A stretch of DNA of 64,000 nt from Demequina sp. NBRC 110055 (GTDB lineage: Bacteria > Actinomycetota > Actinomycetes > Actinomycetales > Demequinaceae). Below, in pieces: positions 28,795 through 55,227 of the stretch. Each line of letters starts with the position of its first letter. Positions within the stretch are counted from its first letter, which is position 1. The stretch lies in contig NZ_BBRL01000004.1 of NCBI RefSeq assembly GCF_002090135.1, positions 806,001 through 870,000 on the forward strand, given 5' to 3'. The position numbers and the translations under genes were made by a program. Below the pieces are notes generated by a model, which made no database searches, was not told the origin of the DNA, and saw nothing but the letters and a program-made list of their open reading frames with translations.

Positions 28795-28871
28795 ATCGGT
28801 AGCCACGAGTGACATCGGTCACTAGGCTGAGGGAGCGTGTCGTGAGGGCGGCGCGCTCCTGGAGGCAAAGC

Positions 28872-29684
28872 ATGAAAAGGCCGATGCGCACGCTGGCATT
28901 CGTGGGCGCGTCTGCCCTACTCCTGACGGGTTGCACCGGCGATCCGGAGCCGGTGATCTCGACGTCGGCGACCTCGGCGCCTGTCCCCAGCATCTCTGCG
29001 CCGGACGTCGAATCCTCGCCCCAGGGAGGCGATGTTGACGTCACGCCGGCCAGTTACATCGTGACCGCCCCTAGCGACAGGGTCGACGTGTACGACGAGG
29101 TCGACGGCACTGTGACCCAGACCGTGGCCGCGGAGGACGTCCTCAGCGCACCGGGACAGACGCCGCTGACGTTCCTGGTGAAGGAGCTGCGCGACGACTG
29201 GGCCGAGGTGTACCTGCCCGTGCGCCCCAACGGCTCCACGGGCTGGATCCCGCTGGCCGACGAGCAGTTGACCGCGACGTCCTACCGCCTCGAGATCTCG
29301 CTGACGGACTTCACGCTGAGCCTCTTCGAGGGCGACGATGAGGTCTTCACCGCCGAGGTGGGCGTGGGTCGTGACGACCGCCCCACCCCCGGCGGGGTCT
29401 ACTACATCCGTGAGCTCTTGCAGCCGCCGGATCCCGAGGGCGTCTACGGCCCGTTCGCCTACGGCCTGTCGGGCTACTCGCCCGTCCTGGACGAGTTCAA
29501 GGGCGGCGAGGCGATCATCGGCATTCATGGCACCGACGAGCCCGACAGGCTCGGCAGCTACGTCTCCTCGGGCTGCATCCGCATGGCCAACGACGCGATC
29601 ACGGAGCTCGTCACCGAGTTCGGCGTCCCGCTGGGCACGCCGGTCTACATTTCCGACCAGGCCGCGGACCTGACCGCGGCCTAA
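28872..29684 (+). CDS. L,D-transpeptidase (YkuD) lipoprotein
   Basis: This 270-residue lipoprotein (signal ends LLLTGC) has an SH3-like N-terminal domain (residues about 60-130) and a C-terminal YkuD catalytic domain starting YRLEISLTDFTLSLFEGDD. The catalytic motif is IGIHGTDEP followed by YVSSGCIRM, with the nucleophilic cysteine in SSGC. Such enzymes form 3-3 peptidoglycan cross-links or attach proteins to the wall outside the membrane. The ATG at 28872 follows GGAGG; the 63-nt upstream in-frame extension lacks a signal peptide. Confidence 0.92.
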   Translation: MKRPMRTLAFVGASALLLTGCTGDPEPVISTSATSAPVPSISAPDVESSPQGGDVDVTPASYIVTAPSDRVDVYDEVDGTVTQTVAAEDVLSAPGQTPLTFLVKELRDDWAEVYLPVRPNGSTGWIPLADEQLTATSYRLEISLTDFTLSLFEGDDEVFTAEVGVGRDDRPTPGGVYYIRELLQPPDPEGVYGPFAYGLSGYSPVLDEFKGGEAIIGIHGTDEPDRLGSYVSSGCIRMANDAITELVTEFGVPLGTPVYISDQAADLTAA

Positions 29685-29756: not shown

Positions 29757-29797
29757 GGGCCCCCTCCCGCGAGGCTGAGGCTCGCGGGAGGGGGCCC
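29757..29797 (-). terminator. Terminator of the large secreted-protein gene
   Basis: A 17-bp perfect stem, GGGCCCCCTCCCGCGAG with CTCGCGGGAGGGGGCCC, has a 7-nt loop and is followed by CCTTTTG on the minus strand. Confidence 0.85.
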
Positions 29798-29824: not shown

Positions 29825-32800
29825 TCAGCCGGTGTACGTGACGCTCGCGACGCGAACAGCCACGGGCTTGGGGGCGTCGGCGACCTTGGTCGGCGTGAGC
29901 GGCGGCGCGTCGAGCACCACGGTCGTGGTGGTCGGCGGGTTGGCCGCGCAGGTCGGGGTGGCCGGCGGGTAGTTCACCGTCACCGTGGTCTCGGGGTTGA
30001 CCTGGACCAGGACCTGCACGCCGTCACGCGTCCAACCGAAGTTGTCCTGGGGGTCGTCCACCGGCATCCACTCGCCGTCCTCGTCCTGGACCCAGCCGGG
30101 CCAGTCGGTGGCGACGAAGGTGTCTCCGTTGGTCGGGTCGATCTGGTCCTCGGTGTAGCCCGCCGCGGGTGCGACGGCCGCTCCGGGCCAGAGGATCCGG
30201 CCTTCGCCCAGCGGGTAGGTGCCCGGCAGGGTGTAGTCCTCGCCATCGGGGTTGACGAAGGTGATGGTGGCCATGGGCTCCTCACCCTCCTCGACTCCGT
30301 CGAGCGGCTGGTCATCGGGGTTGGTGACCACGATGTTGTAGGACAGCCACGGGGCATCGGCCACACAGGTGCCGCCGATGAAGGACCCGGTCAGCGTGGG
30401 CTCTGCGGGCTCCTCACAGCCGCCGGCGAACATGTCGTCGCGCCATAGCTGGTCGGTCTCGGAGTTGAACATCGACTCCATGATCGTGAGGGGAGACCAC
30501 TCGCCATCGGCCTCCGAGCAGATCTGGATGGGCGTGCACTCCAGGCCGTTGACCCACGCGATGGCACCCGCGGGGGCCTCGCCGTAGTAGGTCACCATCT
30601 GGGCGGCCCCGTCGGTGAACTCGCAGACCTCGATCACGGGGGGCTCACAGTCGCCCGCGGCGGCGGGGTAGGTGACGCCGGTGATCTCGGTCTCCGGGTT
30701 GAGCTGGACCGTCACGGTCGCGCCGTCACGGGTCCACCCGTAGTTGTCGGTGCCCACGTTCTTCAGCACGCCGTCGATGGTGTCCCAACCAGGCCAGGCG
30801 TTGGGGTTGCCGTCGCCGTCGGTACCGAAGCCGGGCCACTCGATCTGGCCGGACCACAGCGGGTAGTCCGCAGGGTCGATGGCCACGGTGGTCGACCAGG
30901 GGGTGAAGCCCTCCTTCGAGAACGTGATGGTGATCTCGGTGAGGTCGCTGGCCTCGTTGGGCAACTGGGCGGCCGGGTCGTTGAGGTCAACCGTCCAGTT
31001 GATCAGCGGCGTCCCGTCGGAGCAGATGGCCTCGACGTACGAGCTGTCGATGTCGAAGCAGTCCTCGTCGGGCTCGTCGATGGTGAACTCGTACGTGAAC
31101 AGCGCGTAGGGGTTCAGCTCGATGACCATCGGCTGCACCAGTCCCGGCTCGGCGAGCACGGGCGCGGGCATGGCGGTGATGCGGTAGTCACCCGGGCCCA
31201 GGTCGAGGGCACTGATGTCCACCTCGGCCCCCGGCAGGAACGGGCCGTAGGTGTCGACGACGGTGACGCCGTCCTCGCCGAGCTTCACCAGGGTGAACAC
31301 CACGGGGCTCTGGAAGGAGCCGATCACGGCCTCGTAGTCGAACCCGCCGAAGTCGGGGTTGAGGCAGGTGAGGTCGGTGTGCGTGCCACCGGCGCTCGGC
31401 GTGACGGGGGTCGCACAGTCGTTCTTCCAGTAGTCGAGCCAGGCCTCCCAGCCGGACTCGCCCTCGAACTCCTCGGGCCAGTTCCTGCCGTCGAAGGCGA
31501 TGGTGTACCCGTTCTTCTCGACGCTGAACGGCGGGATGATGTCGGCGTCGTGCGTGCCGCTATCGGTGCCGTGGCCATTCGCGAAGTCGAACTCCCACTG
31601 CGAGCCGTTGAAGATCGCGTTGAACGAGATCTCGATGTTGTTGAACGGGTTCTGGCCGGACTCGGTGGCGTGGCAGATCTTCACCTTGTCAGAGACGTCG
31701 AAGCAGTCGCGGGCGTCGCCGGTCCACTCCGTGTACTCCTCGGGCAGGTCCTCCTCGTAGTAGTCCTGGCCGTACCAGCCACCCTCGCCCTCTTCGCAGA
31801 TGGTGACGACCGGGCCGCAGTACTTGGCGTCGACCGCGGTCTCGATGGCGGGGTCGCCCTCCCAGAGGGTGGCGTACTCGTAGCCACCGTCACCGTCGGG
31901 GACGCAGTACTCGTCGTTGGTGAGCTCGCAGCCGGCGGGGACGGGGGCCTGCTCGGAGTAGTTCTCCCACAGGACGTAGTGGTCCCAGCCCTGCGCTGCG
32001 GGGTTGGCGGACGCCGCGAGCGAGGCGTGGCTCGCGGTCCCGGTGTCCTTGTCGAACACGCAGTAGTCCACCGGCGGAGGCTCGCATTCGCCCGAGTTCT
32101 CGATCTTGATGATCCAGTGGACCATCTCGGGGGTCCAGATGGCGTCGTCGGCAGGCTTGCCGCCGTTGGGCCACGTCAGCAGCTTGGAGCTGCGCAGGTT
32201 GTCGAGGACGCCCTGGTCCGAGGTGCCGTCGATCCGGTAGCGGTCCAGCTGGATCCACTGGTCGACGTCACAGACCGGCACTCCACAGTCGCCGGAGCCG
32301 AGCAGGGCCTCCTTGCTGGCGCCCTCGGCCAGCCACTTCTGCGGGAAGTTCGCCTGGGTGACGACGGCCTGGTAGCCCTCGACCAGCCTGTCGACCCCCT
32401 GGTCGACCTTCCAGCAGACGTAGACGTAGTAGTAGCAGTCGGTGGTGGAGCCGCGCTTGAACTTCAGCTCGTAGCCCATCTCTTGGATGGCTGCGATCTG
32501 GTTCTCGCTGAAGTTCTCGCACACGGGCGGCGGGGGAGTCTCACACTTCTTCGGGTCCACGGCGGTGTAGCCCACCTCGTCGTCGTACACGGAGACCTTC
32601 TCGAAGCCGCCGTTGCCGTCGGCCACACAGATCTCGATCATCGACGGCGTGCAGTCGGACTCGTCGACCTGGTCGCGCGGCAGGCCGCCCTCGGCAACCT
32701 CGACGATGTCGGCGACATCGTTCTCGGCGTCCCACTGGCACACATACATGGGGTCGGGCGTGGGCTCGCCGCAGTCAACGTTGGGCCAGATGTCGAGTTC

Positions 32801-33433
32801 ATTGACCTGGATGAAGGTGATACGGAAGTACTCCCAGTTCAGCGTGGCCCACTTCGCGGTGTCCCTGAAGTTCACGGTGTAGGTCTTCTGCCCGTATCCC
32901 GGGGTGTTGACGTCCCAGTGCCAGGAGATGGACTCCTCGGGGCCAAAGGGCTTGCCGTCGTCGTCCAGCTGTTGGATCTTGAAGTTGATGTGCTGGCCGT
33001 CGAAGGCGTACGGCCAGGTGGCGGTGATGGTGCCGTCGCAGTAGTACTCGACGGTCGGCTTGCCCTGCGGCACGTAGTGCACCATGTAGTGCGACACGTC
33101 CTTGCCGGACGAGTGCGTGATGGTGACCGTCTTGGCCGGCGGGTCGACGTTCTTGATCTCCGGCCCGTTGCCGTTCTGCGTGGAAGCGGACTTCACGCAG
33201 TACTTGTCGATGAGTTTGCCGGCGGGCGCGGTGACCTCGACCGATTTCTTATCTCCGGTGACGTCGATCTTGTTCGACCAGCCGTCGCCCGAGACGATGT
33301 CGGAACAGACTTTGACGGAGTCGTCGGTCCCGGTGGCGAGCGCCGGGAGCGACGCCGTCGTCAGTCCGATCATGGCGAGTGTCGCGGCAACCACCGCAGC
33401 CACCCACATGTGGAAATGGGTCCTCAGCTTCAT
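29825..33433 (-). CDS. Large Cys-rich repetitive secreted surface protein
   Basis: This 1202-residue exported protein starts with a Sec signal peptide (MKLRTHFHMWVAAVVAATL... ending SLPALATG) behind AAAGGAGG. It is acidic and rich in Trp, Asp and Pro, with many paired cysteines. Short modules recur: (V/I)C..(D/E)G.GG(F/Y)...(V/L) blocks near residues 240, 500, 540 and 930, a KICHATESGQNPFNN block near 585 of a type common in actinobacterial surface proteins, and two similar modules of about 130 residues ending DN(Y/F)GWTRDG..V.VQ(L/V)NPET near 890 and 1145. The C-terminus is a Thr/Pro tail without LPxTG, membrane helix or basic end, so it is probably released or bound non-covalently. Its function is unknown; adhesion or matrix is a guess. 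Confidence 0.8.
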   Translation of the reverse strand: MKLRTHFHMWVAAVVAATLAMIGLTTASLPALATGTDDSVKVCSDIVSGDGWSNKIDVTGDKKSVEVTAPAGKLIDKYCVKSASTQNGNGPEIKNVDPPAKTVTITHSSGKDVSHYMVHYVPQGKPTVEYYCDGTITATWPYAFDGQHINFKIQQLDDDGKPFGPEESISWHWDVNTPGYGQKTYTVNFRDTAKWATLNWEYFRITFIQVNELDIWPNVDCGEPTPDPMYVCQWDAENDVADIVEVAEGGLPRDQVDESDCTPSMIEICVADGNGGFEKVSVYDDEVGYTAVDPKKCETPPPPVCENFSENQIAAIQEMGYELKFKRGSTTDCYYYVYVCWKVDQGVDRLVEGYQAVVTQANFPQKWLAEGASKEALLGSGDCGVPVCDVDQWIQLDRYRIDGTSDQGVLDNLRSSKLLTWPNGGKPADDAIWTPEMVHWIIKIENSGECEPPPVDYCVFDKDTGTASHASLAASANPAAQGWDHYVLWENYSEQAPVPAGCELTNDEYCVPDGDGGYEYATLWEGDPAIETAVDAKYCGPVVTICEEGEGGWYGQDYYEEDLPEEYTEWTGDARDCFDVSDKVKICHATESGQNPFNNIEISFNAIFNGSQWEFDFANGHGTDSGTHDADIIPPFSVEKNGYTIAFDGRNWPEEFEGESGWEAWLDYWKNDCATPVTPSAGGTHTDLTCLNPDFGGFDYEAVIGSFQSPVVFTLVKLGEDGVTVVDTYGPFLPGAEVDISALDLGPGDYRITAMPAPVLAEPGLVQPMVIELNPYALFTYEFTIDEPDEDCFDIDSSYVEAICSDGTPLINWTVDLNDPAAQLPNEASDLTEITITFSKEGFTPWSTTVAIDPADYPLWSGQIEWPGFGTDGDGNPNAWPGWDTIDGVLKNVGTDNYGWTRDGATVTVQLNPETEITGVTYPAAAGDCEPPVIEVCEFTDGAAQMVTYYGEAPAGAIAWVNGLECTPIQICSEADGEWSPLTIMESMFNSETDQLWRDDMFAGGCEEPAEPTLTGSFIGGTCVADAPWLSYNIVVTNPDDQPLDGVEEGEEPMATITFVNPDGEDYTLPGTYPLGEGRILWPGAAVAPAAGYTEDQIDPTNGDTFVATDWPGWVQDEDGEWMPVDDPQDNFGWTRDGVQVLVQVNPETTVTVNYPPATPTCAANPPTTTTVVLDAPPLTPTKVADAPKPVAVRVASVTYTG

Positions 33434-33505
33434 TGCATTCCTCCTTTGCCGCGGCTGGCGCCCCCCAGAGCGCCCCTCAGCGCCGCGACACTTAAGGACG
33501 ACGGT

Positions 33506-33521
33506 AGTGATATTTGTCACA
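33506..33521. promoter_or_regulatory. CRP/GlxR-like box 1
   Basis: AGTGA-TATTTG-TCACA matches the TGTGA-N6-TCACA consensus with one mismatch; it lies 73 bp upstream of the secreted-protein start. Confidence 0.5.
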
Positions 33522-33573: not shown

Positions 33574-33589
33574 TGTGACGAAAGTCACA
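33574..33589. promoter_or_regulatory. CRP/GlxR-like box 2
   Basis: TGTGA-CGAAAG-TCACA is an exact match to the CRP/GlxR consensus TGTGA-N6-TCACA, about 210 bp upstream of the dehydrogenase start and 140 bp upstream of the divergent gene. Confidence 0.65.
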
Positions 33590-33798: not shown

Positions 33799-36684
33799 AT
33801 GGCGCCCGTGACGATCGCCCCGGAGAGCACCGACCTGGCCGCACACCTGCGCGCGCGCGTGGACGGGGAGGTCGACGACAGCCCCCGGCGCCGCGCCGAG
33901 TACTCGACCGACGCCTCCAATTACCGCGTCCCGCCCCAGGTGGTCGTCTTCCCGCGTGACACCGACGACCTCGAGGCCGCGCTCGCGGCCGCGCGAGAGA
34001 TCGCCGCCCCGGTCACCATGCGCGGCGGCGGCACGTCCGTGGCCGGCAACTCCATCGGCCCCGGCGTCGTCATCGACACCAGCCGCCACATGAACCGGCT
34101 GCTCGAGCTCGACCCCGAAAACCGCACGGCCCGCGTCCAGCCCGGCCTCATCCTGGGCGACCTCCAAAAGGAAGCAGCCAAGCACGGCCTGCGCTTCGGC
34201 CCCGACCCCTCCACCACCAACCGCGCGACGCTCGGCGGCCTGATCGGCAACAACGCGTGCGGCCCCCACGCCGTCGCCCACGGCAAGACCAGCGACAACG
34301 TCCACGCCCTCGAGGTCATCACCGGCGACGGCCGCCGCCTCACCGCCGGCCGCAAGGGCACCGCCGCCATCGACGGACTCGACGACCTCATCCGCGCCAA
34401 CCTCGCGCTGATCCGCACCGAGTTCGGTCGGTTCGAGCGCCAGGTCAGCGGCTACTCGCTCCAGCACCTGCTGCCCGAGCTCGGCGGCGACCTCGCCCGC
34501 TTCCTGGTCGGCACCGAGGGCACGCTCGCCACCACGCTCGAGGCCACCGTGCGCCTGGTCCCCATCGCCCCCGTGCGCCTCACGGTCGCCTTCGGCTACG
34601 AGGACATGCCCCAGGCGGCCGATGCCGTCGTGCCGATCATGGCCCACTCACCCCACGCGGTGGAGGGCCTGGATGCCCGCCTCATCGCCCGCATCCGCGC
34701 CGCCAAGGGTGACCAGGCCATCCCCGACCTGCCGCCGGGAGCCGGCTGGCTGTTCGTCGAGGTCGGAGCCGACACCGAGGACGAGGCGCGGGAGATTCTG
34801 GCGAGGATCACGGCCGATGCCGGCACCAGCTCCGTACGGGTCCTCGAGGATCCTGCGGAGGCCGCGCGCCTGTGGGCCATCCGCGCCGACGGCGCCGGGC
34901 TCGCCGGACGCAGCGCCGACAACAAGGAGTGCTGGCCCGGCTGGGAGGACGCCGCCGTCCCGCCCGAGAACCTGGGCACGTATTTGCGCGAGTTCGACAC
35001 GCTCATGGACAGCCACGGCGTCACGGGCCAGCCGTTCGGCCACTTCGGCGACGGCTGCATCCACGTGCGCCTCGACATCCCGCTCCAGGACGACGGCAGG
35101 CCCCTGCGCGCCTTCATGGAGGACGCCGCCGCGCTGGTCGCCCGCCACGGCGGGTCCCTCAGCGGCGAGCATGGCGACGGCCGCGCCCGCGGCGAGCTGC
35201 TCCACACGATGTACTCGCCCGAGGCCATCGGCCTGTTCGGCGACATCAAGCGCCTCTTCGACCCCCAGCGCCACCTCAACCCCGGAGTGGTGGTCGACCC
35301 CGCCCCCCTGGACGCCGACCTGCGCCGCCCCGCCGCGCCCCGCACGCCCAAATCCACGGGCCTCGCCTTCGCGCACGACCACGGTGACCTCACCGAGGCC
35401 GTCCACCGCTGCACAGGTGTGGGGAAGTGCCGCGCTGACTCCATCGGCGGCAACAACGGCTTCATGTGCCCCAGTTACACGGCCACCAAGGACGAGAAGG
35501 ACGTCACGCGCGGCCGCGCGCGCGTGCTGCAGGACGCCATCAACGGCACGCTCATCGGTGGATTGAAGGCCCCCGAGGTACGCGAGTCGCTCGACCTGTG
35601 CCTGAGCTGCAAGGCCTGCAGTTCCGACTGCCCGTCGGGCGTCGACATGGCCGCCTACAAGGCCGAGGTGCTTCACCGCACCTACAAGAACAAGATCCGC
35701 CCCGTCGCGCACTACTCCATTGGGTGGCTGCCGCGCTGGCTCAAGGCCATCGGCATCGCGCCGGGTCTCGTCAACGCGGCGCTCAAACCCCGGTGGATCC
35801 AGAAGACCGCGGTGAGCCTCGCCGGCATGGACACCCGCAGGACGTTGCCCACCTTCTCGACCACGCCGTTCCGCAAGTCTGCCGTCGCGAAGGCGAGGCG
35901 GAAGGGGAAGCCGGCCACGGCATCGGCCGCCGGAAACCGGGTTGTCTTGTGGGCGGACAGCTTCACGGACGGCCTGGACGCGCAGATCCCCGCCGCGATG
36001 GTGTCGGTGCTCGAGGACGCGGGCTTCGAGGTCATCGTGCCCGAGCAGTCCGTGTGCTGCGGCGTCACCTGGATCTCGACGGGCCAGCTGGACGGCGCCC
36101 GCCGCCGCCTCCAGGACCTGCTCCAGGTGCTGGGTCCGTACGCGGTCAACGGCATCCCGATCATCGGCGTCGAGCCTAGTTGCACCGCCACGCTGCGCGG
36201 CGACCTCACGGAATTGCTGCCCGACGACCCTCGCGCTCACGCGGTGGCTCGCGGTACGTTCTCCCTGGCTGAGGTGCTGATGGGGAAGGCGCCGGCCAGA
36301 CCACGTGAGGGGTGGAGCGTGCCACGACTGGACGATGTGACCGCGGTGGTGCAGCCGCACTGCCACCACTACTCGGTGACCGGCTTCACGCCGGACCACG
36401 AACTGCTGAAGACGGCAGGCGCGAGCGTGACGGAGACGGCGGGCTGCTGCGGGCTGGCCGGCAACTGGGGCACGGAGAAGCGTCACTACGACACGTCCGT
36501 CGCGGTCGCAGAGAACTCGCTGCTGCCGGCGCTGCGCCACGCCCCCGATGGTGCGATCTACCTGGCCGATGGCGTCAGCTGCCGCACCCAGGCCGAGGAC
36601 CTCGCCGGCACGCGCGGCATGCATCTCGCGGAGTTGCTCGCGGAGCGCATCGGCGTTTGGCCCGACGCAGGTGCGACGGCATGA
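33799..36684 (+). CDS. Fused FAD-linked oxidase / Fe-S dehydrogenase (YdiJ type)
   Basis: This protein of about 961 residues fuses a GlcD-like flavin half to a GlcF-like iron-sulfur half, as in YdiJ-type D-2-hydroxyacid (D-2-hydroxyglutarate or D-lactate) dehydrogenases. The FAD-binding segment has VTMRGGGTSVAGNSIG near residue 75 and LGGLIGNNACGPHA near 145. The FAD-oxidase C domain has GHFGDGCIHVR and SGEHGDGRARGEL. Cysteine motifs follow: CTGVGKC, CLSCKACSSDCPSG, and the CCG-domain pairs CCGVTW and CCGLAGNWG. ATG at 33799 or GTG at 33808 could start it; neither has a strong ribosome site. Electrons probably go to the respiratory chain. The CRP-like boxes upstream fit carbon-source control. 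Confidence 0.9.
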   Translation: MAPVTIAPESTDLAAHLRARVDGEVDDSPRRRAEYSTDASNYRVPPQVVVFPRDTDDLEAALAAAREIAAPVTMRGGGTSVAGNSIGPGVVIDTSRHMNRLLELDPENRTARVQPGLILGDLQKEAAKHGLRFGPDPSTTNRATLGGLIGNNACGPHAVAHGKTSDNVHALEVITGDGRRLTAGRKGTAAIDGLDDLIRANLALIRTEFGRFERQVSGYSLQHLLPELGGDLARFLVGTEGTLATTLEATVRLVPIAPVRLTVAFGYEDMPQAADAVVPIMAHSPHAVEGLDARLIARIRAAKGDQAIPDLPPGAGWLFVEVGADTEDEAREILARITADAGTSSVRVLEDPAEAARLWAIRADGAGLAGRSADNKECWPGWEDAAVPPENLGTYLREFDTLMDSHGVTGQPFGHFGDGCIHVRLDIPLQDDGRPLRAFMEDAAALVARHGGSLSGEHGDGRARGELLHTMYSPEAIGLFGDIKRLFDPQRHLNPGVVVDPAPLDADLRRPAAPRTPKSTGLAFAHDHGDLTEAVHRCTGVGKCRADSIGGNNGFMCPSYTATKDEKDVTRGRARVLQDAINGTLIGGLKAPEVRESLDLCLSCKACSSDCPSGVDMAAYKAEVLHRTYKNKIRPVAHYSIGWLPRWLKAIGIAPGLVNAALKPRWIQKTAVSLAGMDTRRTLPTFSTTPFRKSAVAKARRKGKPATASAAGNRVVLWADSFTDGLDAQIPAAMVSVLEDAGFEVIVPEQSVCCGVTWISTGQLDGARRRLQDLLQVLGPYAVNGIPIIGVEPSCTATLRGDLTELLPDDPRAHAVARGTFSLAEVLMGKAPARPREGWSVPRLDDVTAVVQPHCHHYSVTGFTPDHELLKTAGASVTETAGCCGLAGNWGTEKRHYDTSVAVAENSLLPALRHAPDGAIYLADGVSCRTQAEDLAGTRGMHLAELLAERIGVWPDAGATA

Positions 36685-38860: not shown

Positions 38861-40636
38861 GTGCCCACCGTAGCGGCCCATGCCGGCACCAGGCCAGCGC
38901 GACGGTGGCCATGGGTCGTGGCCGGCGCCGCTGTCTTGGCCCTGGTACCGGTCGGGTTATTCGCCTGGGACGGCTACCAGCTGCTCACGTCGGTCGATGA
39001 GCTGGAGTCGTCGGCCGCCGCGGCCCAGCAGGCCGTGACCGACCGTGACGCCACGGCGCTGACCACCGAAGTCGCGGACCTGCAGGTCGCGGCCGCGACT
39101 TTCGCCGCGCACTCGTCCGGGTGGCACTGGGACCTCGCGGCCCACGTGCCGTGGGTGAGCGACCAGACGGTGCCGCTGCAGCAGGTGGGTCAGTCGGTCA
39201 GCGTGATCGCGGACGATGCCCTGGGCCCGCTCGCGGACATGGGTGACCTCTCCGCGTTGGAGGCGCCCCCCATTCAGGACGGACGCATCGACCCGTTCTT
39301 CCTGGAGGATTTCCGCGCGCCACTCGCTCAAGCGTCCGATGTCCTGGCCGAGCAGTCGGAGCAGCTCGCCGCCGTCGACATGACCGGCACGCTCGAGCAG
39401 ATTTCCGACCCGTACGAGGGGCTTGAGGACGATCTGTCTCAGATGGGCGACCTGGTCTACGTGGCCCACGTCGCCGCCGAACTCCTGCCCACCATGCTGG
39501 GCGGCGAGGAGCCGCGCACCTACGCGCTGATGGTGCAAAACAACGCCGAGCCGCGCGCCTCGGGTGGCATCCCCGGCGCGGTGCTCGAGCTCACCGTGGA
39601 CGACGGACGCGTGTCGCTCGGCGACTACATCCCAGCCTCCACCATGAGCGACCCCCAGAACCCGGTGGCAACCCTCACGGACGACGAGGAACGCATCTAC
39701 TCCATCAAGATGGCCCAGTACGCGCAGAACGTGAACTTCACCCCCGAATACCCGCGCGCGGCCGAGGTGATGGCGGCGTTCTGGGAGCGCGAGACGGGCG
39801 AGGCCGTCGACGGCGTGCTGTCGATCGACCCCGTCGCCATGGGCTACATGCTCGACGGCATGGAGCCGGTCACCATCGACGACGTGGAGATCACGAGCGA
39901 CAACCTCGCGCAGGTGCTGCTGTCCGACGTGTATTGGAAGTACCCCGAGCCTCAGCAGTCCGATGCGTTCTTCGCCCTCGCGGCCCGCGAGCTCTTCGGC
40001 CAGCTCCTTGGCGGCACCACCGACGTGATGGGTGGTGTCGAGACGGCGATCGACCAGCGGCGCTTCCTCGCGTGGTCGGCCCACGGCTCGGAACAGGACC
40101 TGCTCGCCACGGTCCCGCTCGCCGGAGACCTCGTCAGTGACGGGGACACCACCGGCGTCTACCTCAACGACGCCAACGGCGCGAAGATCGGGTACTACAT
40201 CGACCAGGACATCGAGGTCACCAACACGGTCTGCGCCGGCGGCGAGGTGCGCGGCCAGACCCTCGCGGTTACCTTCACCCACACCTACGACGGCGATATC
40301 GAAGAATTACCCGATTATGTTTCAGGTGGCGGGCAATTCGTCGACGTAGGACAATTCGTGGCGAATATGCATTTCTACCCGCCCGAGGGCTCCACGGTGA
40401 CCCGTGTCGAGCAGGATGGCAACGCGGCGCTGTACAGCCCCGACACTCACGACGGACGCGCCATGCTGACGCTCCGGATCGACCTCAGCCCTGGTGAAGG
40501 CACCACTGTTGAGTTCCAGACCAGCCTCGCCGAGCCTGCACCTCAGGCGCCCCAGGTGGCGTGGACGCCCTTGTCGCGAGTGGCGAATGTTACAGATGTG
40601 AAAACTTTGGGTGGGAGCAGCACAAATACCTGTTAG
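38861..40636 (+). CDS. DUF4012 exopolysaccharide-associated membrane protein
   Basis: This protein of about 591 residues has one N-terminal transmembrane helix (residues about 16-36) and a large extracellular part of the DUF4012 type. Key segments are YALMVQNNAEPRASGGIPGAV, the nitrogen-rich signature of the family, and DGVLSIDPVAMGYMLDGM. It has a distant LytR-CpsA-Psr-like layout and is often encoded in actinobacterial polysaccharide loci, which fits a role in polysaccharide attachment or export; this is not proven. GTG at 38861 follows GAGGAG; a TTG at 38804 would be the upstream alternative. An apparent local AT-rich patch lies near 40300-40370. Confidence 0.85.
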   Translation: MPTVAAHAGTRPARRWPWVVAGAAVLALVPVGLFAWDGYQLLTSVDELESSAAAAQQAVTDRDATALTTEVADLQVAAATFAAHSSGWHWDLAAHVPWVSDQTVPLQQVGQSVSVIADDALGPLADMGDLSALEAPPIQDGRIDPFFLEDFRAPLAQASDVLAEQSEQLAAVDMTGTLEQISDPYEGLEDDLSQMGDLVYVAHVAAELLPTMLGGEEPRTYALMVQNNAEPRASGGIPGAVLELTVDDGRVSLGDYIPASTMSDPQNPVATLTDDEERIYSIKMAQYAQNVNFTPEYPRAAEVMAAFWERETGEAVDGVLSIDPVAMGYMLDGMEPVTIDDVEITSDNLAQVLLSDVYWKYPEPQQSDAFFALAARELFGQLLGGTTDVMGGVETAIDQRRFLAWSAHGSEQDLLATVPLAGDLVSDGDTTGVYLNDANGAKIGYYIDQDIEVTNTVCAGGEVRGQTLAVTFTHTYDGDIEELPDYVSGGGQFVDVGQFVANMHFYPPEGSTVTRVEQDGNAALYSPDTHDGRAMLTLRIDLSPGEGTTVEFQTSLAEPAPQAPQVAWTPLSRVANVTDVKTLGGSSTNTC

Positions 40637-40682
40637 CCTGTCCGTGACTTTGAACGTGCACCATGTCTCACTGGGGGACCAC

Positions 40683-41210
40683 ATGATTCGCAAGACTGCC
40701 GCCGCGCTGATCGCCGGCGTTGCCCTCGCTCTCGCGCCCACCGCCGCCATGGCCTACACGCCCACCCCTGTTGGCGGTAGCACCGCCACGATCCCCGCTG
40801 GTGGCAGCGGCAGTTTCACGTTCGACGGCTTTGTGGCCGGCGAGACCGTCACGTTCACCCTGACCGGTGAGGGTGTCGGTCCCGGCAGCCTCGCGGGCAC
40901 CACCTCGGTCACCAAGGAGGCCGACGCGGATGGCGCGGCCGCCGCGACCGTGACCCTCCCCGAAGACGCCACCGGCACGTATGTGCTCTCGGCCGACGGT
41001 GAGGTCAGCGGCGACGCCGGCGACATCACCATCGAGTCGGGTGCGACCGCCTCGGCCGGCGGCACCGACACCGGCGCCGCCGCCTCGGGTGACGAGCTTT
41101 CCGGCACCGGCCCTTCCGACAACACCGTGCTCGTCGCGGGCGCTGCCGTCCTGCTCATCGCCGGCGCCGGCGCCGTCGTGGTGGCCTCGCGCCGCCGCAC
41201 CGACGCGTAA
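40683..41210 (+). CDS. Small exported protein with LSxTG-type wall/membrane anchor
   Basis: This 175-residue protein has a signal peptide (ending ALAPTAAMA), a beta-rich domain of about 90 residues (STATIPAGGSGSFTFDGF... VTFTLTGEGVG...), an Ala/Gly/Thr linker, and a C-terminal LSGTG followed by a hydrophobic helix and RRRTDA. This is a sortase-signal layout in which the usual LPxTG/LAxTG reads LSGTG. The ATG at 40683 follows GGGGGA. The domain resembles short Ig-like carrier modules of actinobacterial surface proteins. It is likely surface-anchored with unknown function and pairs with the next gene, which has the same architecture. Confidence 0.82.
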   Translation: MIRKTAAALIAGVALALAPTAAMAYTPTPVGGSTATIPAGGSGSFTFDGFVAGETVTFTLTGEGVGPGSLAGTTSVTKEADADGAAAATVTLPEDATGTYVLSADGEVSGDAGDITIESGATASAGGTDTGAAASGDELSGTGPSDNTVLVAGAAVLLIAGAGAVVVASRRRTDA

Positions 41211-41231
41211 CCGCCAGCACAGACTCTTTTC

Positions 41232-41261
41232 GCGGCCCCGCACCGACAGGTGCGGGGCCGC
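41232..41261 (+). terminator. Terminator between the two LSxTG genes
   Basis: GCGGCCCCGCACC pairs with GGTGCGGGGCCGC around loop GACA, 21 nt after the first stop. The T-run lies before rather than after the stem, so strength is uncertain. Confidence 0.7.
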
Positions 41262-41326
41262 TGCTGTGTGTGGCGACCTTGTCACAGCCGGGCGTCAGGA
41301 TTGGGACGCGGGACATTCCGGATGTT

Positions 41327-41884
41327 ATGGTCGCGCGGGCGCGAGACCTCCTCGCCGCCAGTCTGGAGCATCCGTTGATCCGTCGTTCCCTCGCCGCGTG
41401 CACACTCGCAGTGGCTCTCGCCTCCGCCCCGACGGCGGCACTGGCGGCGAACGCCTACCCCGCACCCCAGGACGCGCTCACCGTCAACGCGCAGCGTGTC
41501 GTCCCGGGCGGTGAGGTGATGGTGTCGGTCGGCGGACCGGCCGGAAGCGAAGCCCAGGTCCAGGTGACCAGCTCGGGCGAGGACGCCACCATTGCAGGCA
41601 CCGTGACCTCGGCGGTCAAGGTCATCCAGTCGGATGCGACGCCCGTCATGTTCACCGTCACCGTGCCATCGGCAAGCGGCACCGTCGGTGTGACGGCGCT
41701 CCTCGACGGCGTCGCTGTCGACACCGCCACCATCTCCGTGGTCTCGGAGGCAGCCGCGGCTGCCTCCGATGATCTCAGCGTGACGGGTCCCGAGGTGGTC
41801 GGCATCGCCGTTGCCGCCATCGTGCTCGTCGGCGGAGGCGCCGCGATCGCTATCGCCGCGCGTCGCCGCCGCGACGACGACTAG
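41327..41884 (+). CDS. Second small exported protein with LSxTG-type anchor
   Basis: This protein of about 185 residues has a signal sequence ending APTAALAA, one beta-sandwich-like domain (ALTVNAQRVVPGGEVMVSVGG... GTVGVTALLDGVAVDTATI), then LSVTG, a transmembrane helix and RRRRDDD. The architecture matches its upstream neighbour, suggesting duplication and divergence. ATG at 41327 was preferred because it gives a moderate n-region; the frame is open to 41270 and no ribosome site decides. It is tail-to-tail with the tyrosine autokinase gene with no gap. Confidence 0.75.
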   Translation: MVARARDLLAASLEHPLIRRSLAACTLAVALASAPTAALAANAYPAPQDALTVNAQRVVPGGEVMVSVGGPAGSEAQVQVTSSGEDATIAGTVTSAVKVIQSDATPVMFTVTVPSASGTVGVTALLDGVAVDTATISVVSEAAAAASDDLSVTGPEVVGIAVAAIVLVGGGAAIAIAARRRRDDD

Positions 41885-43338: not shown

Positions 43339-44340
43339 CTACTCGCGGAGGTGTTCCGCGTTCTCCAGGAACCACTGGTAGGTGGAGCGGAGGCCGTCTT
43401 CGAGGCCGATGCTCGCGGTCCAGCCCGCTTGGGCCAGCTTGGAGACGTCGAGCAGCTTTTGCGGGGTGCCGTCGGGCTTGGTGGTGTCCCATTCGGTGGT
43501 GCCGGTGTAGCCGGTGACGGCGGCGGTGGTCTCCGCGATCTCGGCGATGGTGACGTCGGTTCCGGTGCCGACGTTGACTTGTTGGGGTCCGTCGTAGTTT
43601 TCCAGGAGGTGGAGGCAGGCGGCGGCCATGTCGTCGACGTGGAGGAACTCGCGTCGGGGTGTGCCGGTGCCCCAGTTGGTGACCACGTCCGTGCCGGACT
43701 GGACGGCTTCGTGGTAGCGGCGAATCAGGGCCGGGAGTACGTGGGATCCGGTGGGGGAGAAGTTGTCGCCGGGGCCGTAGAGGTTGGTGGGCATGGCGCT
43801 AATCCATGCTTTGCCGTATTCGCGGCGTGCGGCTTGGATGTGCATGATGCCGGCGATCTTCGCGATCGCGTATGCGTCGTTGGTGTGCTCCAGGTAGCCG
43901 GTGTGGAGGGCGTCCTCCGTGATGGGCTGGGTTGCCATCTTGGGATAGATACAGGACGAACCTAGGAAGAGCAGCCTCTCGACGCCGGTCTCGAGCGCCG
44001 CGTCGATGACGTTGGTTTGGATACGAATGTTGTCGCTCAGGAACTCGACGGGGTACGTGTTGTTGGCGAGGATTCCGCCGACCTTGGCGGCGGCGAGGAC
44101 GACGTATTGGGGGTTGGTGTCGCGCATGAACGCGAACACCGCTTCACGGTCCGTGAGGTCCAGCTCGGATGAGGTGCGTCCGACGAGGTTGGTGAAGCCT
44201 TCTGCTTCGAGTGTGCGCCACATGGCACCACCGACGAGGCCCCGGTGGCCTGCCACATAGAACGTGGCGTCGCGGTCGAGTCGTGCGGGGGTGTAATTGA
44301 CGTTGTCGGTGATGCGCGGGCCGTCGTCGATGGTCGTCAT
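43339..44340 (-). CDS. fcl: GDP-L-fucose synthase
   Basis: This 333-residue short-chain dehydrogenase converts GDP-4-keto-6-deoxymannose to GDP-L-fucose by epimerisation and NADPH reduction. Family marks are the nucleotide motif VAGHRGLVGGAMW near residue 29, AAAKVGGILANNTYP, LGSSCIYP with the catalytic Ser, and AYAIAKIAG with Tyr and Lys; NLYGPGDNF is the fucose-synthase signature. It follows gmd on the same strand with a 20-nt gap, so the two complete GDP-fucose supply for the polysaccharide. Confidence 0.95.
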   Translation of the reverse strand: MTTIDDGPRITDNVNYTPARLDRDATFYVAGHRGLVGGAMWRTLEAEGFTNLVGRTSSELDLTDREAVFAFMRDTNPQYVVLAAAKVGGILANNTYPVEFLSDNIRIQTNVIDAALETGVERLLFLGSSCIYPKMATQPITEDALHTGYLEHTNDAYAIAKIAGIMHIQAARREYGKAWISAMPTNLYGPGDNFSPTGSHVLPALIRRYHEAVQSGTDVVTNWGTGTPRREFLHVDDMAAACLHLLENYDGPQQVNVGTGTDVTIAEIAETTAAVTGYTGTTEWDTTKPDGTPQKLLDVSKLAQAGWTASIGLEDGLRSTYQWFLENAEHLRE

Positions 44341-44360
44341 AGTTCGTCGACTCCAGGGAG

Positions 44361-45386
44361 CTACTTGTAGGTGTCGAGAGTAACGGTGTCGATCCAGGGA
44401 CGGCCTTCGTGCTTGAGCATCTCGATATCGGCATCAACCATCAGACGCGCGAGGTCCGCGGAGTGGACGGAGGCCTTCCACCCGAGCTTCTGCTCGGCCT
44501 TCGTGGGGTCACCGATGAGGGCGTCGACTTCGGTGGGGCGAAGGTAGCGCTCATCGAACTTGACGTGGTCGTGCCAGTTCAGGCCCGCGTGTTCGAAGGA
44601 CGCATCGAGGAAGTCACGCACCGTGATGCCGACACCGGTGGCCAGCACGAAGTCTTCGGGCTCATCTGCCTGCAGCATGCGCCACATGCCTTCGGCGTAT
44701 TCGGCGGCGTATCCCCAGTCACGAATGGAGTCGAGGTTACCGAGCCATAGTTCGTCTTGCAGGCCCGCCTTGATACGTGCGACGGCGCGGGTGATCTTGC
44801 GTGTGACGAACGTTTCGCCGCGGCGGGGAGACTCGTGGTTGAAAAGGATGCCGTTGACGGCAAACATCCCGTAACCCTCACGGTAGTTCTTCGTCACCCA
44901 ATACGAGTAGACCTTGGCGGCACCGTAGGGCGAGCGGGGATAGAAGGGGGTGTCCTCACCCTGCGGGGGCGGGGTGGCGCCGAACATCTCGGAGGTGGAG
45001 GCCTGATAGAAGCGGCAGTGGATGCCGGCCTTGCGAACGGCCTCCAGCATGCGCATGGAACCGATGCCCGTGACGTCACCGGTGTGCTCGGGCTCATCGA
45101 AACTCACTCGCACGTGAGACTGGGCCGCGAGGTTATAAACCTCGTCCGGGTTGATGTCATGAAGGAGCGAGACAAGGCGTGAACCGTCAGAGAGGTCCCC
45201 ATAGTGAAGAAAAAGCCTCGCGTCTTTGTTATGCGGATCGGTGTAAAGGTGGTCGATCCGTGACGTGTTAAACGTCGACGCACGGCGGATGAGGCCATGG
45301 ACTTCGTACCCCTTGGCTAGCAGGAGCTCGGCGAGGTAGGAGCCGTCCTGGCCCGTTACGCCAGTAATAAACGCGCGCTTCGTCAT
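44361..45386 (-). CDS. gmd: GDP-mannose 4,6-dehydratase
   Basis: This 341-residue NADP-dependent enzyme makes GDP-4-keto-6-deoxymannose from GDP-mannose. It has the Rossmann motif [17 protein letters not shown] near residue 8, [15 protein letters not shown], the catalytic STSEMFG region with [10 protein letters not shown], and [16 protein letters not shown] typical of GMD. The ATG at 45386 follows AAAGGAC; the longer frame to 45536 covers the promoter region. It is the first gene of the gmd-fcl pair and divergent from the WecG/TagA gene, with a 237-bp AT-richer gap between. Confidence 0.96.
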
Positions 45387-45623
45387 ATAGGTCCTTTGGC
45401 GGTTGCCGGCTGAAAGACGGCGAATTAGCGGTAGTGAGAACTGTATCGTCAATGAGCGAGGAGAAAACACGGCGCCCACGTCGCACAGTCGCCGACCCTC
45501 AAACCCCACGGTTAACCTGCGAATCTTAGCGTACACTGCTTAGGGTCTTGCGTCCCCGGCAAACGCAATGGCGAAGTTGATCGACCTTGCCTATCAATAC
45601 GATTATACTGTGGAGATTCTCGA
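45387..45623. promoter_or_regulatory. Divergent promoter region at the edge of the lower-GC block
   Basis: This 237-bp gap separates gmd (minus) from the WecG/TagA gene (plus). A good -10 box TATACT (45604-45609) lies 14 nt before the ATG at 45624, giving a very short leader; no clear -35 box sits at 16-18 nt. The base composition becomes visibly more AT-rich here. Confidence 0.45.
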
Positions 45624-46361
45624 ATGGCGCGAATCGGAAATATACATGTTGCCAGGGGATCGCGACGAGACCTCACGGTAAGAGTCCTTGAGATGGCGAG
45701 GCAGTCAGCGGCGGGTTCCCATGTCGTTCTGGCGAACGCCTTTACAGTGCACAACGCCGCCATCAACCCGGAATATGCGGGAGTTGTCAATCGCGCATTT
45801 GCGATTATAGACAGCCGCGTAATCGTCGCGTCATTGCGGCTTCGGAAATTGCGGGGATATGTTCAGCTTCGCGGCTCAGATCTCATGGACGACTTAATTT
45901 CCGCGGGGTTAGAAGAGTACTTGAGCCACGCTTTTGTGGGAGGAAGCCCAGAAGTAATCGGCCGCCTTGAGGATTGGTTCCGTGTGGCGCATCCTGACGC
46001 TATTGGCGAGGCTTTCTATAGTCCGAGCTTCCTTCCTGTCGGCGAAGAGTTGGTGGAGTCGTGCGTCAAGGGAGTCCCTCTAGATGCCGTCGATATTATT
46101 TGGCTTGGTCTGGGAAGCCCGAAGCAAGACTGGGTTGCTGAAAAGATTGCCGTTAGGACTGGCAAAGTGGTTATTGGTGTTGGCGCTGCTTTCGATTTCA
46201 AGGCGGGCAACCGCAAGGAAGCGCCGAAGTTCTTACGACTAGTCGGGCTCGAATGGGCATATCGACTCGTGAAAGAGCCCCGTCGACTCTGGCGTCGATA
46301 TATGACTGGAAATGCCACGTTGCTGCGTTTACTGATTCGCGGCGATGGGGTCTCCCAGTAA
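45624..46361 (+). CDS. WecG/TagA/CpsF-family glycosyltransferase
   Basis: This 245-residue GT26 enzyme probably adds the second sugar (often ManNAc or a uronic acid form) to the lipid-linked primer at the inner membrane face. Family marks are ANAFTVHNAA, LRGSDLMDDL, LGLGSPKQDW and the signature VGAAFDFKAGNRKEAPKF followed by GLEWAYRLVKEPRRLWRRY. It opens a plus-strand operon of closely spaced or overlapping genes to 50.7 kb. Codon use is less GC-biased than in flanking genes, a sign of transfer. Confidence 0.92.
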   Translation: MARIGNIHVARGSRRDLTVRVLEMARQSAAGSHVVLANAFTVHNAAINPEYAGVVNRAFAIIDSRVIVASLRLRKLRGYVQLRGSDLMDDLISAGLEEYLSHAFVGGSPEVIGRLEDWFRVAHPDAIGEAFYSPSFLPVGEELVESCVKGVPLDAVDIIWLGLGSPKQDWVAEKIAVRTGKVVIGVGAAFDFKAGNRKEAPKFLRLVGLEWAYRLVKEPRRLWRRYMTGNATLLRLLIRGDGVSQ

Positions 46362-46376
46362 GTAGAAGGAAAATAG

Positions 46377-46907
46377 ATGAAAAAGCTAAGCAATGCGCGT
46401 CGGATCGCAATTAGGATCTTACGTGGCAGGGAGGCAGAAGCAAAATATCTCGGAGTGGAGCTCGGTGCGAATGTGCGCCTACTCTCATCGGGATTCGGTT
46501 CCGAGCCGTGGCTGGTGTCAATTGGAACTGGAACGACAATTAGCGGAAGGGTTCAATTCATCACGCACGATGGCATCGGGGCGCTCGTGCGAGATGAAAA
46601 TGGCAGACGCTACCGGTACGAGCGTATCGAGGTTGGCGCGCATTGCTTTGTGGGCTTTGGCGTGATCGTCATGCCTGGCGTGAGGATCGGTGACGGCGCA
46701 GTCGTCGGCGCGGGTGCAGTGGTCACGAAGAGTGTCGCGGCGGGCACCGTAGTCGCGGGAAATCCTGCAATGCCCATAGCTGGGACGGCCGACTTGCTAG
46801 ACCGTGTTGCCAAGTGGCCCAGCGATAGCGATCGACGTACGCGTGATCTTCGGCAGTGGTCAACCGAGGTGGCTAGGGGAGTGCACGGGGAATGGGAAAG
46901 TAAATGA
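46377..46907 (+). CDS. Hexapeptide-repeat acyltransferase
   Basis: This 176-residue protein has left-handed beta-helix hexapeptide repeats ([15 protein letters not shown], then [35 protein letters not shown] in one run) ending VVAGNPAM, as in LbH O-acetyltransferases of the WcaF/CysE type. It probably O-acetylates a sugar of the repeat unit. Its last 4 nt overlap the next gene. The donor is expected to be acetyl-CoA; the acceptor sugar is unknown. Confidence 0.85.
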
Positions 46908-47710
46908 GCATGGCGCAACCGGCCCCCATTATCTCAATTGTAACCGTCACGTTTAATGACCTTGAGAATCTCAAGCTCGCATGCGAGAGCGTCTTGCGCC
47001 AGGAGAGCGCGAGTTTTGAGCACATCATTGTCGACGGAGGGTCTAGTGACGGGACCGCCGAATGGGTAGAATCGACCTATGCACTGGACGTAGATTGTAA
47101 ATTTTCATCGGGGCCCGACGACGGCATTTTCGATGCCATGAATCGAGGCCTCAGAGTCGCTACTGGCGAACTCGTCTTGTTCATGAATGGTGGAGATCGC
47201 CTTCCACGCGCCGACTCGCTCGCTGCGGTATCAGAGAGCTATCGCCGTGAGCAGTGGGAATGGTCTTATGGGGCGATCACATATGTTGACGATGAGCTTA
47301 CTCCGATACGTGACTACTCAAACCCGACTTTCAGCCTACGTCGGTTGTCTCTCGGTCTGGACTTCGTGCCACATCCGACTCTTTTCGCAAAGCGTTCAAT
47401 CCTCTTGGAGGAAGGAGGATTCAATTTACGTTTCGGATTCTCAGCGGATCAGGAGTTGGCGGTGCGTCTAGCGAGTCATGGAATGCCCAAGGTTTTCCGA
47501 GAAGTCCAGTCTTTGTACAAGATTAATGGCGCACACGGCGCGAGCTCCTCGATCGGAACTGCGCGTCGCTACCAGGAAATTCGCAAAAGCCACCAAATGC
47601 GGTTGGGTGCATCTGTAATGCTAGACGAGATTTTCACGATTATGCTCGCAGCACGTTGGGAAGCGGGACGCCTTAAGAGACGACTATTCGAGAGGTTCAA
47701 CTTAGCGTGA
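46904..47710 (+). CDS. Glycosyltransferase family 2
   Basis: This 268-residue GT-A glycosyltransferase has the nucleotide-binding start [20 protein letters not shown], the acidic motif [16 protein letters not shown], then [12 protein letters not shown] and LFMNGGDRL. These marks match the WcaA/EpsE-like GT2 subgroup. It is cytoplasmic and probably extends the lipid-linked repeat unit. The start overlaps the acyltransferase stop by 4 nt. The sugar donor cannot be deduced. Confidence 0.92.
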
Positions 47711-48288
47711 GGTTTACCCAAACATATAGGCAATACACGTTTGCAGTTCGCGCGGACCGCGCTTCGCACAACAATCCACCCAGACGGGGTCTAAGACGCC
47801 TCCGTCACCCCGAGTTGGATTATCAGATACGGTTGCGCCAACTTGAGGCAGTCATGAGATTACCTGGCGTTCCAGGCCGACTTTTGGTGGTGGTCGCCCG
47901 GGCCCGTGTGGCGATCGCATCCTTGCGAACGGGAATCACGTTGGGGCCGAATGTCGCTGGACCCGGTCTAGGCATTGCTCATCACGGTAGCGTGGTAGTG
48001 AATGCGCACGCGCGCATCGGGTCTTTCGTGCGCATCCACTCAGCTACGAACATTGGTACCGATGGGACGGGTGCACCAGTCATCGGTAGCCGTGTTTACA
48101 TCGGTCCGGGCGCTGTGATCTATGGTCCTGTCCATGTGGGCGATGGTGCGGTCATTGGAGCGAATGCGGTAGTTAATAAGGACGTGCCCCCGGGCGTCAC
48201 AGTCGCGGGCGCTCCTGCCAAGGTGATTTCCCAGCGCGGCTCCGACGCGATCATGCCTCGCTGGTGGCCTCGCGATCATGAACACTGA
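47707..48288 (+). CDS. Serine-acetyltransferase-like hexapeptide transferase
   Basis: This 193-residue protein has a helical N-terminus and C-terminal hexapeptide repeats (GIAHHGSVVVNAHARIGSFV, VIGSRVYIGPGAVIYGPVHV) ending VTVAGAPAKVI, the fold of CysE and polysaccharide O-acetyltransferases. The position in the operon favours sugar acetylation over cysteine synthesis. GTG at 47707 overlaps the preceding stop by 4 nt. It is the second acyltransferase of the cluster. Confidence 0.85.
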   Translation: MRFTQTYRQYTFAVRADRASHNNPPRRGLRRLRHPELDYQIRLRQLEAVMRLPGVPGRLLVVVARARVAIASLRTGITLGPNVAGPGLGIAHHGSVVVNAHARIGSFVRIHSATNIGTDGTGAPVIGSRVYIGPGAVIYGPVHVGDGAVIGANAVVNKDVPPGVTVAGAPAKVISQRGSDAIMPRWWPRDHEH

Positions 48289-48324
48289 GAGAAGCGCCTC
48301 GCTTCGCCCTGCGATGGGAAGAGA

Positions 48325-51841: not shown

Positions 51842-51893
51842 GGCTGGTTTGTTCCGTTCGGAGTATGGTCGCTATTGGATCGTTAACGCAGAT

Positions 51894-55027: not shown

Positions 55028-55207
55028 TGGTCGGAGTTTACCTCGATGGCGGCTTTTAATGGAATTCCTACGGTAGTCTTGTTCTTCTTCTGAGTTCCTT
55101 CGCCGAATCGTGGCTTATCCTTGCCTAACTGGGAAATGTGACAATCGCGACAAACGAGCTTGTGGTCGTGGCGCGCATCCCTCTCGCTAGCGTGAAGGGT
55201 GTCGCCT
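55024..55207 (-). pseudogene. Possible HNH-nuclease C-terminal remnant
   Basis: On the minus strand about 60 codons before a stop at 55024 read GGDTLHASERDARHDHKLVC then RDCHISQLGKDKPRFG. The LVCRDCH segment preceded by a GG-spaced His-rich stretch resembles the end of an HNH endonuclease. The frame continues only into ugd's antisense, with no start or N-terminal HNH part, so it would be a fragment. The evidence is weak. Confidence 0.22.
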
Positions 55208-55215
55208 CCGACCGC

Positions 55216-55221
55216 TAGTGT
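55216..55221 (+). promoter_or_regulatory. -10 hexamer TAGTGT for leaderless ugd
   Basis: TAGTGT, then TTGGGT (6 nt), then the ATG at 55228. The geometry matches the other leaderless starts and argues against the in-frame TTG at 55222. Confidence 0.55.
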
Positions 55222-55227
55222 TTGGGT

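Follow-up and report, generated by a model that had tools for sequence, protein, structure and literature searches.

A transmembrane-free C-terminal tag on Demequina secreted proteins is genetically coupled to an L,D-transpeptidase and may direct their attachment to the cell wall

The tagged gene and its product

We analysed a 64,000-nucleotide stretch of Demequina sp. NBRC 110055 (contig NZ_BBRL01000004.1, positions 806,001 to 870,000; hereafter, the window, whose coordinates are used below), in which a minus-strand gene at 29825-33433 encodes a 1,202-amino-acid (aa) modular secreted protein. An earlier reading of the same letters (the original prediction) had described this product as a Cys/Trp-rich secreted protein with several repeat types and a plain Thr/Pro C-terminus lacking an anchor. 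The protein ends in a short conserved tag, and its gene converges on one for a YkuD-type L,D-transpeptidase (LDT), the proposed partner enzyme. The features of the two genes are as follows.

29825..33433, minus strand: tagged modular secreted protein, 1,202 aa (ATG 33433-33431, TGA 29827-29825; open reading frame [ORF] and 91% identical homologue)
33332..33433, minus strand: Sec-type signal peptide, approximately residues 1-34 (read from sequence; cleavage site inferred)
32543..32629, minus strand: Cys module with GNGG, residues 269-297 (sequence)
31817..31906, minus strand: Cys module with GDGG, residues 510-539 (sequence)
31469..31675, minus strand: CHAT...NPF...GH...DIIPPF block, residues about 587-655 (sequence; the CHAT block also occurs in other tagged proteins)
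30644..31066, minus strand: first WPGW/NYGWTRDG module, residues about 790-930 (sequence and homologue comparison)
29945..30421, minus strand: second WPGW/NFGWTRDG module, residues about 1005-1163 (alignment; predicted mostly beta)
29828..29944, minus strand: C-terminal linker and tag, residues 1164-1202 (predicted disordered; predicted local distance difference test [pLDDT] about 30)
29828..29869, minus strand: C-terminal tag, the last 14 residues KPVAVRVASVTYTG-COOH (alignments of C-termini)
28809..29684, plus strand: convergent neighbour, lipoprotein LDT (YkuD, HGT...SSGCIR; Pfam PF03734, E 1.1e-17)

Genes were called by simple ORF and third-position GC rules. GC at third positions ranges from about 0.84–0.98 along the ORF at 33433-29825, compared to 0.32–0.74 at the other two positions, and because it lies so far above these, we regard the frame as coding. 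Much of the original description held: the protein contains 32 Cys and 41 Trp behind its Sec-type signal peptide and carries several repeat types, namely Cys modules of the C-x3-G[ND]GG type (GNGG at residue 273, GDGG at 514, and a looser copy at 937), one CHAT block (at 587), and two WPGW...N[YF]GWTRDG modules (WPGW at 880 and 1111). A homologue from another Demequina is 91% identical across residues 1-1201, and 29 of the 59 genomes searched, counting its own, contain a match. The expectation that no named family would span the full length was also confirmed, as nothing above cut-off was found in Pfam, NCBIfam, or the PDB sequences. The sole Pfam match, DUF3862 (17.6 bits), lies under the cut-off of 25 and was rejected as an identity for the protein. 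The suggested structure prediction by segments returned a mostly beta fold for the second WPGW module, and its fold search gave no PDB match at E<=0.001.

The tag is common to unrelated secreted proteins

The 1,202-aa protein has no LPxTG-like motif followed by a transmembrane (TM) segment and basic tail, and its ORF stops at TG. A frameshifted or overrun TM anchor 3' of the stop was ruled out, given that no such tail occurs in the other downstream frames. The terminal residues are VASVTYTG-COOH. All 20 aligned C-termini finish in [YF][TA]G after a linker that differs in length and sequence, and the stop codon directly follows [YF][TA]G in the Demequina homologues at the same locus and at 15 of 15 named Demequina loci. 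The last 40 residues of the AlphaFold model have a pLDDT near 30, compared to 78–93 for most of the preceding module; as modelled, the tail is a flexible arm carrying a fixed tip.

Forty-four Demequina genomes were scanned with a strict DNA pattern ([AP]V.[GA].[APV].[YF][TA]G-stop), which gave 54 matches across 30 genomes, and two with the reversed pattern used as a control. At least five of the 54 matches are chance-like (one has no stop after it, two lie in loci where no secreted ORF is plausible, and two more were judged from their letters alone). At the loci read, the tagged secreted proteins vary in make and include Ser/Thr/Pro-rich proteins, CHAT proteins, and short proteins. A total of 80 distinct tagged proteins were assembled, which share a consensus of about A-x-[PA]-V-x-[GA]-x-[PA]-x-[YF]-T-G-COOH and have no TM segment. 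Position -2 is Thr in 71 and Ala in nine of them and position -3 is Tyr in 55 and Phe in 25, the last three positions being set by the selecting expression. Position -5 (34 Ala, 34 Pro, nine Val, three Ile) and position -9 (Val in 67/80) lie within the -10 to -3 range that the DNA pattern biases in part of the set, whereas position -12 (Ala in 68/80) is free of this bias, as are the members found via homology or via the LDT. Single-linkage clustering after removal of the first 45 and last 40 residues resolved the 80 proteins into 23 families, the largest with 53 members. Judged from these comparisons, the tag is common to unrelated secreted proteins and is not a mere family trait.

In the window's own genome, the pattern TWYRCNGGNTRA, which did not cover TAG stops, gave 13 matches, of which only the target looks like a tagged secreted protein. 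Two others, VEPFTG and HFEYTG, are real-looking ORF ends (presumably of a GreA-like and a peptidase-like protein, respectively) that we took for chance. NCBIfam sorting-domain models gave nothing above cut-off for the window protein, eight tagged proteins from other loci, or two LDTs.

The tag is coupled to an L,D-transpeptidase in Demequina

The LDT gene at 28809-29684 is convergent with the tagged gene, with a terminator in between. Its product contains a YkuD domain (PF03734, E 1.1e-17), and its model matches Bacillus subtilis YkuD (1y7m; Foldseek E 7.3e-10) and shows a beta-rich region ahead of that domain. The motif HGT...S-x-GC-x-R is invariant in 14 aligned LDTs, and the full catalytic motif is also kept in the 19 tag-linked LDT rows of a tree alignment. 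A search with this LDT recovered 41 genes, each with 48% identity or more, from 37 of the 44 Demequina genomes. By script, a tagged ORF lies within 1 kb of 38 of these genes (within 500 bp of 36), and by eye the remaining three also adjoin a tagged gene, one with masked bases, one an open frame without a signal peptide, and one at a contig end, which brings the count to 41/41. Both LDT and tagged genes are multiplied in four genomes (G001, G004, G028, and G064). The LDT of G007 and G009 lies at a different locus, where it adjoins a different tagged gene. In G018, at first counted as tag-less, an LDT of 41% identity has a tagged gene beside it.

The pairing was compared with several controls. 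Endings in [YF][TAS]G occur in two of 504 genes from loci that had been read for unrelated purposes, four of which had been chosen on account of chance pattern matches. Around a paralogous second Demequina LDT, a tag-like ORF was found at one of 12 loci, that of G019. At this locus (L227, 4667-6829), a 720-aa secreted protein ending in DVSFTG adjoins the paralogous LDT, and the tag-linked LDT group is absent from the genome. A single branch (100/98) parts tag-linked from paralogous LDTs in an unrooted 46-row tree, which took in 19 of the 41 Demequina tag-linked LDTs, 15 from other families, and 12 paralogs, and in the rows printed the paralogs have SNGC and A-x-HGT, whereas tag-linked LDTs have [ST][SH]GC and G-x-HGT. 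Using plain tblastn, the LDT was found at 15/15 named Demequina loci and at 0/24 loci with the module elsewhere; it was also absent from all six Demequina module loci with sortase-type tails, of which 17–20 kb were read each. Coupling of tag and LDT as a genetic unit is well supported by these comparisons.

Tag and transpeptidase recur together outside Demequina

The strict pattern also matched in other families when applied to 396 genomes of the order. There were 31 matches outside Demequina, compared to 16 for the reversed control, and of the 16 that were read, 11 are tagged secreted proteins and five are chance-like. In one genus, a small tagged protein adjoins the LDT on the same strand in six of six sampled genomes, with the tagged gene first and a spacing of 4–5 bp in five of them; in the sixth, the LDT call overruns the tagged gene. 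In another family, the genes for an 880-aa tagged protein and the LDT are divergent, and in a third family the LDT is preceded by a tagged gene.

An LDT search of 12 genomes gave nine matches in six genomes, and the neighbouring ORF ends in [FY]TG in all nine cases. Six of the nine lie in three genomes (G050, G117, and G182) where the tag pattern had found nothing, and the endings there are VIRTPNFTG, VITPNFTG, TKTPSFTG, VVVTVPNFTG, VIAPPNFTG, and PVAQNPTFTG. Because of these endings, we place the core of the tag at about P-x-F-T-G-COOH. The remaining six genomes have neither such an LDT nor a match to the tag pattern, which is strict and missed the variants of G050, G117, and G182. A scan of the phylum gave 10 pattern matches (control, one), eight of which are ORF ends. 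These eight tag-like endings are at L211, L212, L214, L215, L217, L218, L219, and L220, in genomes G682, G769, G765, G773, and G666.

Sortase-type tails on module relatives

A survey of module distribution, which the original prediction had proposed, found the WPGW module in related genomes on proteins whose tails differ, being either tagged or of the sortase type. Read by eye, the module protein ends in an LxxTG-like motif, a TM segment, and a basic tail at 17 of 24 non-Demequina loci, and the seven loci without such a tail (L102, L104, L106, L107, L111, L112, and L114) include several that are cut or come from other phyla. Six giant WPGW-module proteins of Demequina (L231-L236; 1,933–2,867 aa; one each in G016, G032, G010, and G030, and two in G036) have tails of this same make, and the idea that the tag replaced LPxTG in Demequina was rejected on account of them.

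A sortase was found in all 44 Demequina genomes searched, independently of the presence of the tag, and no sortase label occurs within four genes of tagged genes. As it is present everywhere, sortase was rejected as the partner of the tag. Two loci of the window's own genome (L053 and L054) encode TM-tailed proteins, which we take to be CHRD-like and DUF4397-like, directly adjoining sortase genes. Within the window itself, 40611-41210 and 41270-41884 encode tandem secreted proteins with conventional LxTG, TM, and Arg tails; sortase signals and the TM-less tag therefore coexist in one genome.

Expression signals and neighbouring genes

The original prediction also named a ribosome site of the gene's own, a terminator, and CRP-like sites upstream, all of which were found.

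33440..33447, minus strand: ribosome binding site AAAGGAGG (sequence)
29757..29797, minus strand: intrinsic terminator of the tagged gene (17-bp stem and T run)
33574..33589, no strand assigned: perfect CRP/GlxR-like palindrome TGTGAN6TCACA (sequence)
33506..33521, no strand assigned: second CRP-like site, one mismatch, 68 bp from the first (sequence)
33814..36684, plus strand: divergent neighbour, D-lactate-dehydrogenase-like FAD/Fe-S oxidoreductase (presumed name; start approximate; syntenic marker)

Among 60 regions upstream of Demequina tagged genes (the window's own gene counted, and many of the regions related to each other), 10 contain a perfect CRP-like site (0.02 expected) and 28 a site with at most one mismatch (0.4 expected). 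Paired CRP-like sites 67–69 bp apart recur upstream of tagged genes in several related Demequina. Strong expression of the tagged gene is plausible.

The divergent gene at 33814-36684, whose product we take to be a D-lactate-dehydrogenase-like FAD/Fe-S oxidoreductase, is probably outside the tag system; it was rejected as a partner because it is present in six of the seven Demequina genomes first taken as tag-less. In a FastTree tree of this oxidoreductase that included three tag-less genomes, read without a branch-support check, G003/G033 and G021 fall apart. The region at 44000-56000, with nucleotide-sugar genes as we presume them to be, has 55–60% GC compared to near 70% in the rest of the window and looks like an acquired surface-glycan island.

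Proposed wall attachment and alternative explanations

We consider it somewhat more probable than the opposite that the 1,202-aa protein is a wall protein of Demequina, which would be exported by Sec, recognized by the adjacent LDT through its TM-less C-terminal sorting tag, and joined to peptidoglycan. The wider proposal, an Actinomycetota anchoring system in which sortase-like YkuD LDTs use a free C-terminal L-Thr/Ala-Gly as acyl donor and link the C-terminus to peptidoglycan, we regard as evenly balanced. LDTs are described as forming an acyl-enzyme from a tetrapeptide donor with release of D-Ala4, which they also exchange for glycine (PMC10434034). Because the layout of L-Thr-Gly-COOH (an L-residue, an achiral Gly, and a free carboxylate) matches this donor, the tag could act as an acyl donor. 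After Sec export, with a tag of about A-x-[PA]-V-x-[GA]-x-[PA]-x-[YF]-[TA]-Gly-COOH at the extreme C-terminus, the membrane-tethered LDT would bind the flexible tagged tail, and its catalytic Cys would attack the carbonyl of the penultimate L-Thr/Ala. The C-terminal Gly would leave, mimicking the D-Ala (or Gly) that departs when the usual tetrapeptide serves as donor, and a peptidoglycan amine would resolve the protein acyl-enzyme, fixing the protein to the wall via its C-terminus. LDT action on the tag, the covalent product, and the donor polarity are all three inferred. Within one genome, a single LDT may act on several substrates unrelated to each other. As to the wall itself, Demequina has an A4-beta type peptidoglycan with ornithine (PMC4400432), and Lysinimicrobium mangrovi, which appears in our set of loci under the name Demequina mangrovi, has an A4-alpha type (PMC4223460).

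Several observations weigh against this reading. Known LDT-attached proteins are acyl acceptors in the passages considered of PMC12729407, and the proposed polarity is without precedent there; a Thr-Gly donor differs widely from the stem peptide normally used, and the LDT-tag chemistry is proposed from sequence comparison. The tag is not the sole solution, since sortase-type tails also anchor Demequina relatives of the 1,202-aa protein. Demequina neighbourhoods are in part inherited synteny, and the last three positions of the 80 tagged proteins were fixed by the selecting expression ([YF][TA]G). The pairing is also incomplete: no LDT lies within four genes of the tagged genes L148, L150, L153, L156, L163, and L044 (at 16593), the LDT adjoins only one of three tagged genes in G053, the eight tag-like ORF ends from distant Actinomycetota have no LDT within 1.5 kb, and G019 has only the paralogous LDT, yet its neighbour ends in SFTG. 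Finally, the call of six Demequina genomes (G003, G005, G013, G019, G021, and G033) as tag-less depends on a single strict pattern plus a single protein search, and the tags of G050, G117, and G182 escaped this pattern.

The same coupling evidence would also serve if the tag were a docking signal and attachment were Lpp-like, with the peptidoglycan tetrapeptide as donor and a protein amine (N-terminus or Lys) as acceptor, the polarity known for LDT-anchored proteins (PMC12729407 and PMC12274547). However, an Lpp-type acceptor Lys at or near the C-terminus was not found in the last 14 residues of the window protein, where the one Lys is at -14. No Lys is apparent in the mature chain of 14/80 tagged proteins (the mature start being roughly estimated), and the last 30 residues are without Lys in 54/80. 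This alternative, which would leave the conserved free C-terminal [YF]TG unexplained, is weakened by the seemingly Lys-less tagged proteins and by the conservation of the free carboxyl end, and we consider it unlikely. Rather improbable, in our view, is that the tag is a ligand for non-covalent binding of the LDT or another wall partner, or for regulation of the LDT, through its C-terminal peptide. PDZ domains bind free C-termini in this manner, and a conserved free aromatic-x-Gly C-terminus on a disordered tail, together with the beta-rich region ahead of the YkuD domain, would fit such a role, but pure binding needs no catalytic motif, and this is complete in the 14 aligned LDTs and the 19 tag-linked rows.

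Processing of the tag by sortase as a truncated LPxTG signal, cut between Thr and Gly, appears very improbable. Although sortases are universal in the Demequina searched, T-G occurs in both signals, and homologues elsewhere carry LxxTG and TM, sortase presence does not track the tag, no sortase is labelled near tagged genes, and the window tag is without L-P/A at -5/-4; moreover, conventional LxTG, TM, and Arg proteins coexist with it at 40611-41884, as do sortase-type tails among the Demequina relatives. We give the least credence, and very little at that, to an ordinary modular secreted protein whose ending is inherited homology and whose LDT neighbour is synteny. It is favoured by the single-linkage family that holds 53/80 tagged proteins and by the locus order kept in Demequina; against this, the ending is common to 22 further families, the baseline is 2/504, and no LDT lies near copies of the module that bear other tails. 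LDT-tag pairs have other gene orders in three other families and recur in 6/6 cases from genomes without a tag match, and such independent pairing in unrelated loci already speaks against synteny.

Returning to the plain, unanchored C-terminus of the original prediction, the absence of LPxTG and TM stands, but the protein ends in a conserved tag coupled to an LDT. Because the tag is common to unrelated secreted proteins and genetically coupled to the LDT, the reading as a free protein is doubtful, and the 1,202-aa protein is probably not unanchored. Sortase-like chemistry by an unrelated enzyme appears most likely.

Significance and comparison with known systems

If true, the proposed attachment would be a second, sortase-independent means of covalent protein display on Gram-positive walls, one whose signal is very short and requires no membrane segment. 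It would add protein-donor chemistry to the LDT roles of cross-linking and attaching Lpp, assign a function to a group of actinobacterial LDTs, and mean that seemingly free secreted proteins belong to the wall. The tag itself is simple and might find use as a tool for ligation. Among open-access papers, judged by titles and the beginnings of abstracts, we recognized none on such a tag or on Gram-positive LDT anchoring.

The sortase/LPxTG system likewise uses a C-terminal Thr-Gly signal on exported Gram-positive surface proteins, and sortase, too, is a Cys transpeptidase. The tag described here differs in having no TM or Arg tail, a stop right after Gly, and [YF]-T-G without L-P, and the neighbour of the tagged gene is a YkuD LDT rather than a sortase. 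PEP-CTERM/exosortase and GlyGly-CTERM/rhombosortase similarly combine a short C-terminal tag on many unrelated proteins with a dedicated processing enzyme; their signals contain a TM segment, unlike the tag here, and the enzyme family differs. The use of a YkuD-family LDT to fix a secreted protein to peptidoglycan is shared with Braun lipoprotein, OutB, and outer-membrane proteins of Coxiella, Brucella, and Legionella (PMC12729407 and PMC12274547). The systems named there are Gram-negative and use Lys or an N-terminal amine as acceptor, whereas the candidate system described here belongs to Actinomycetota and presents a free C-terminal [YF]TG.

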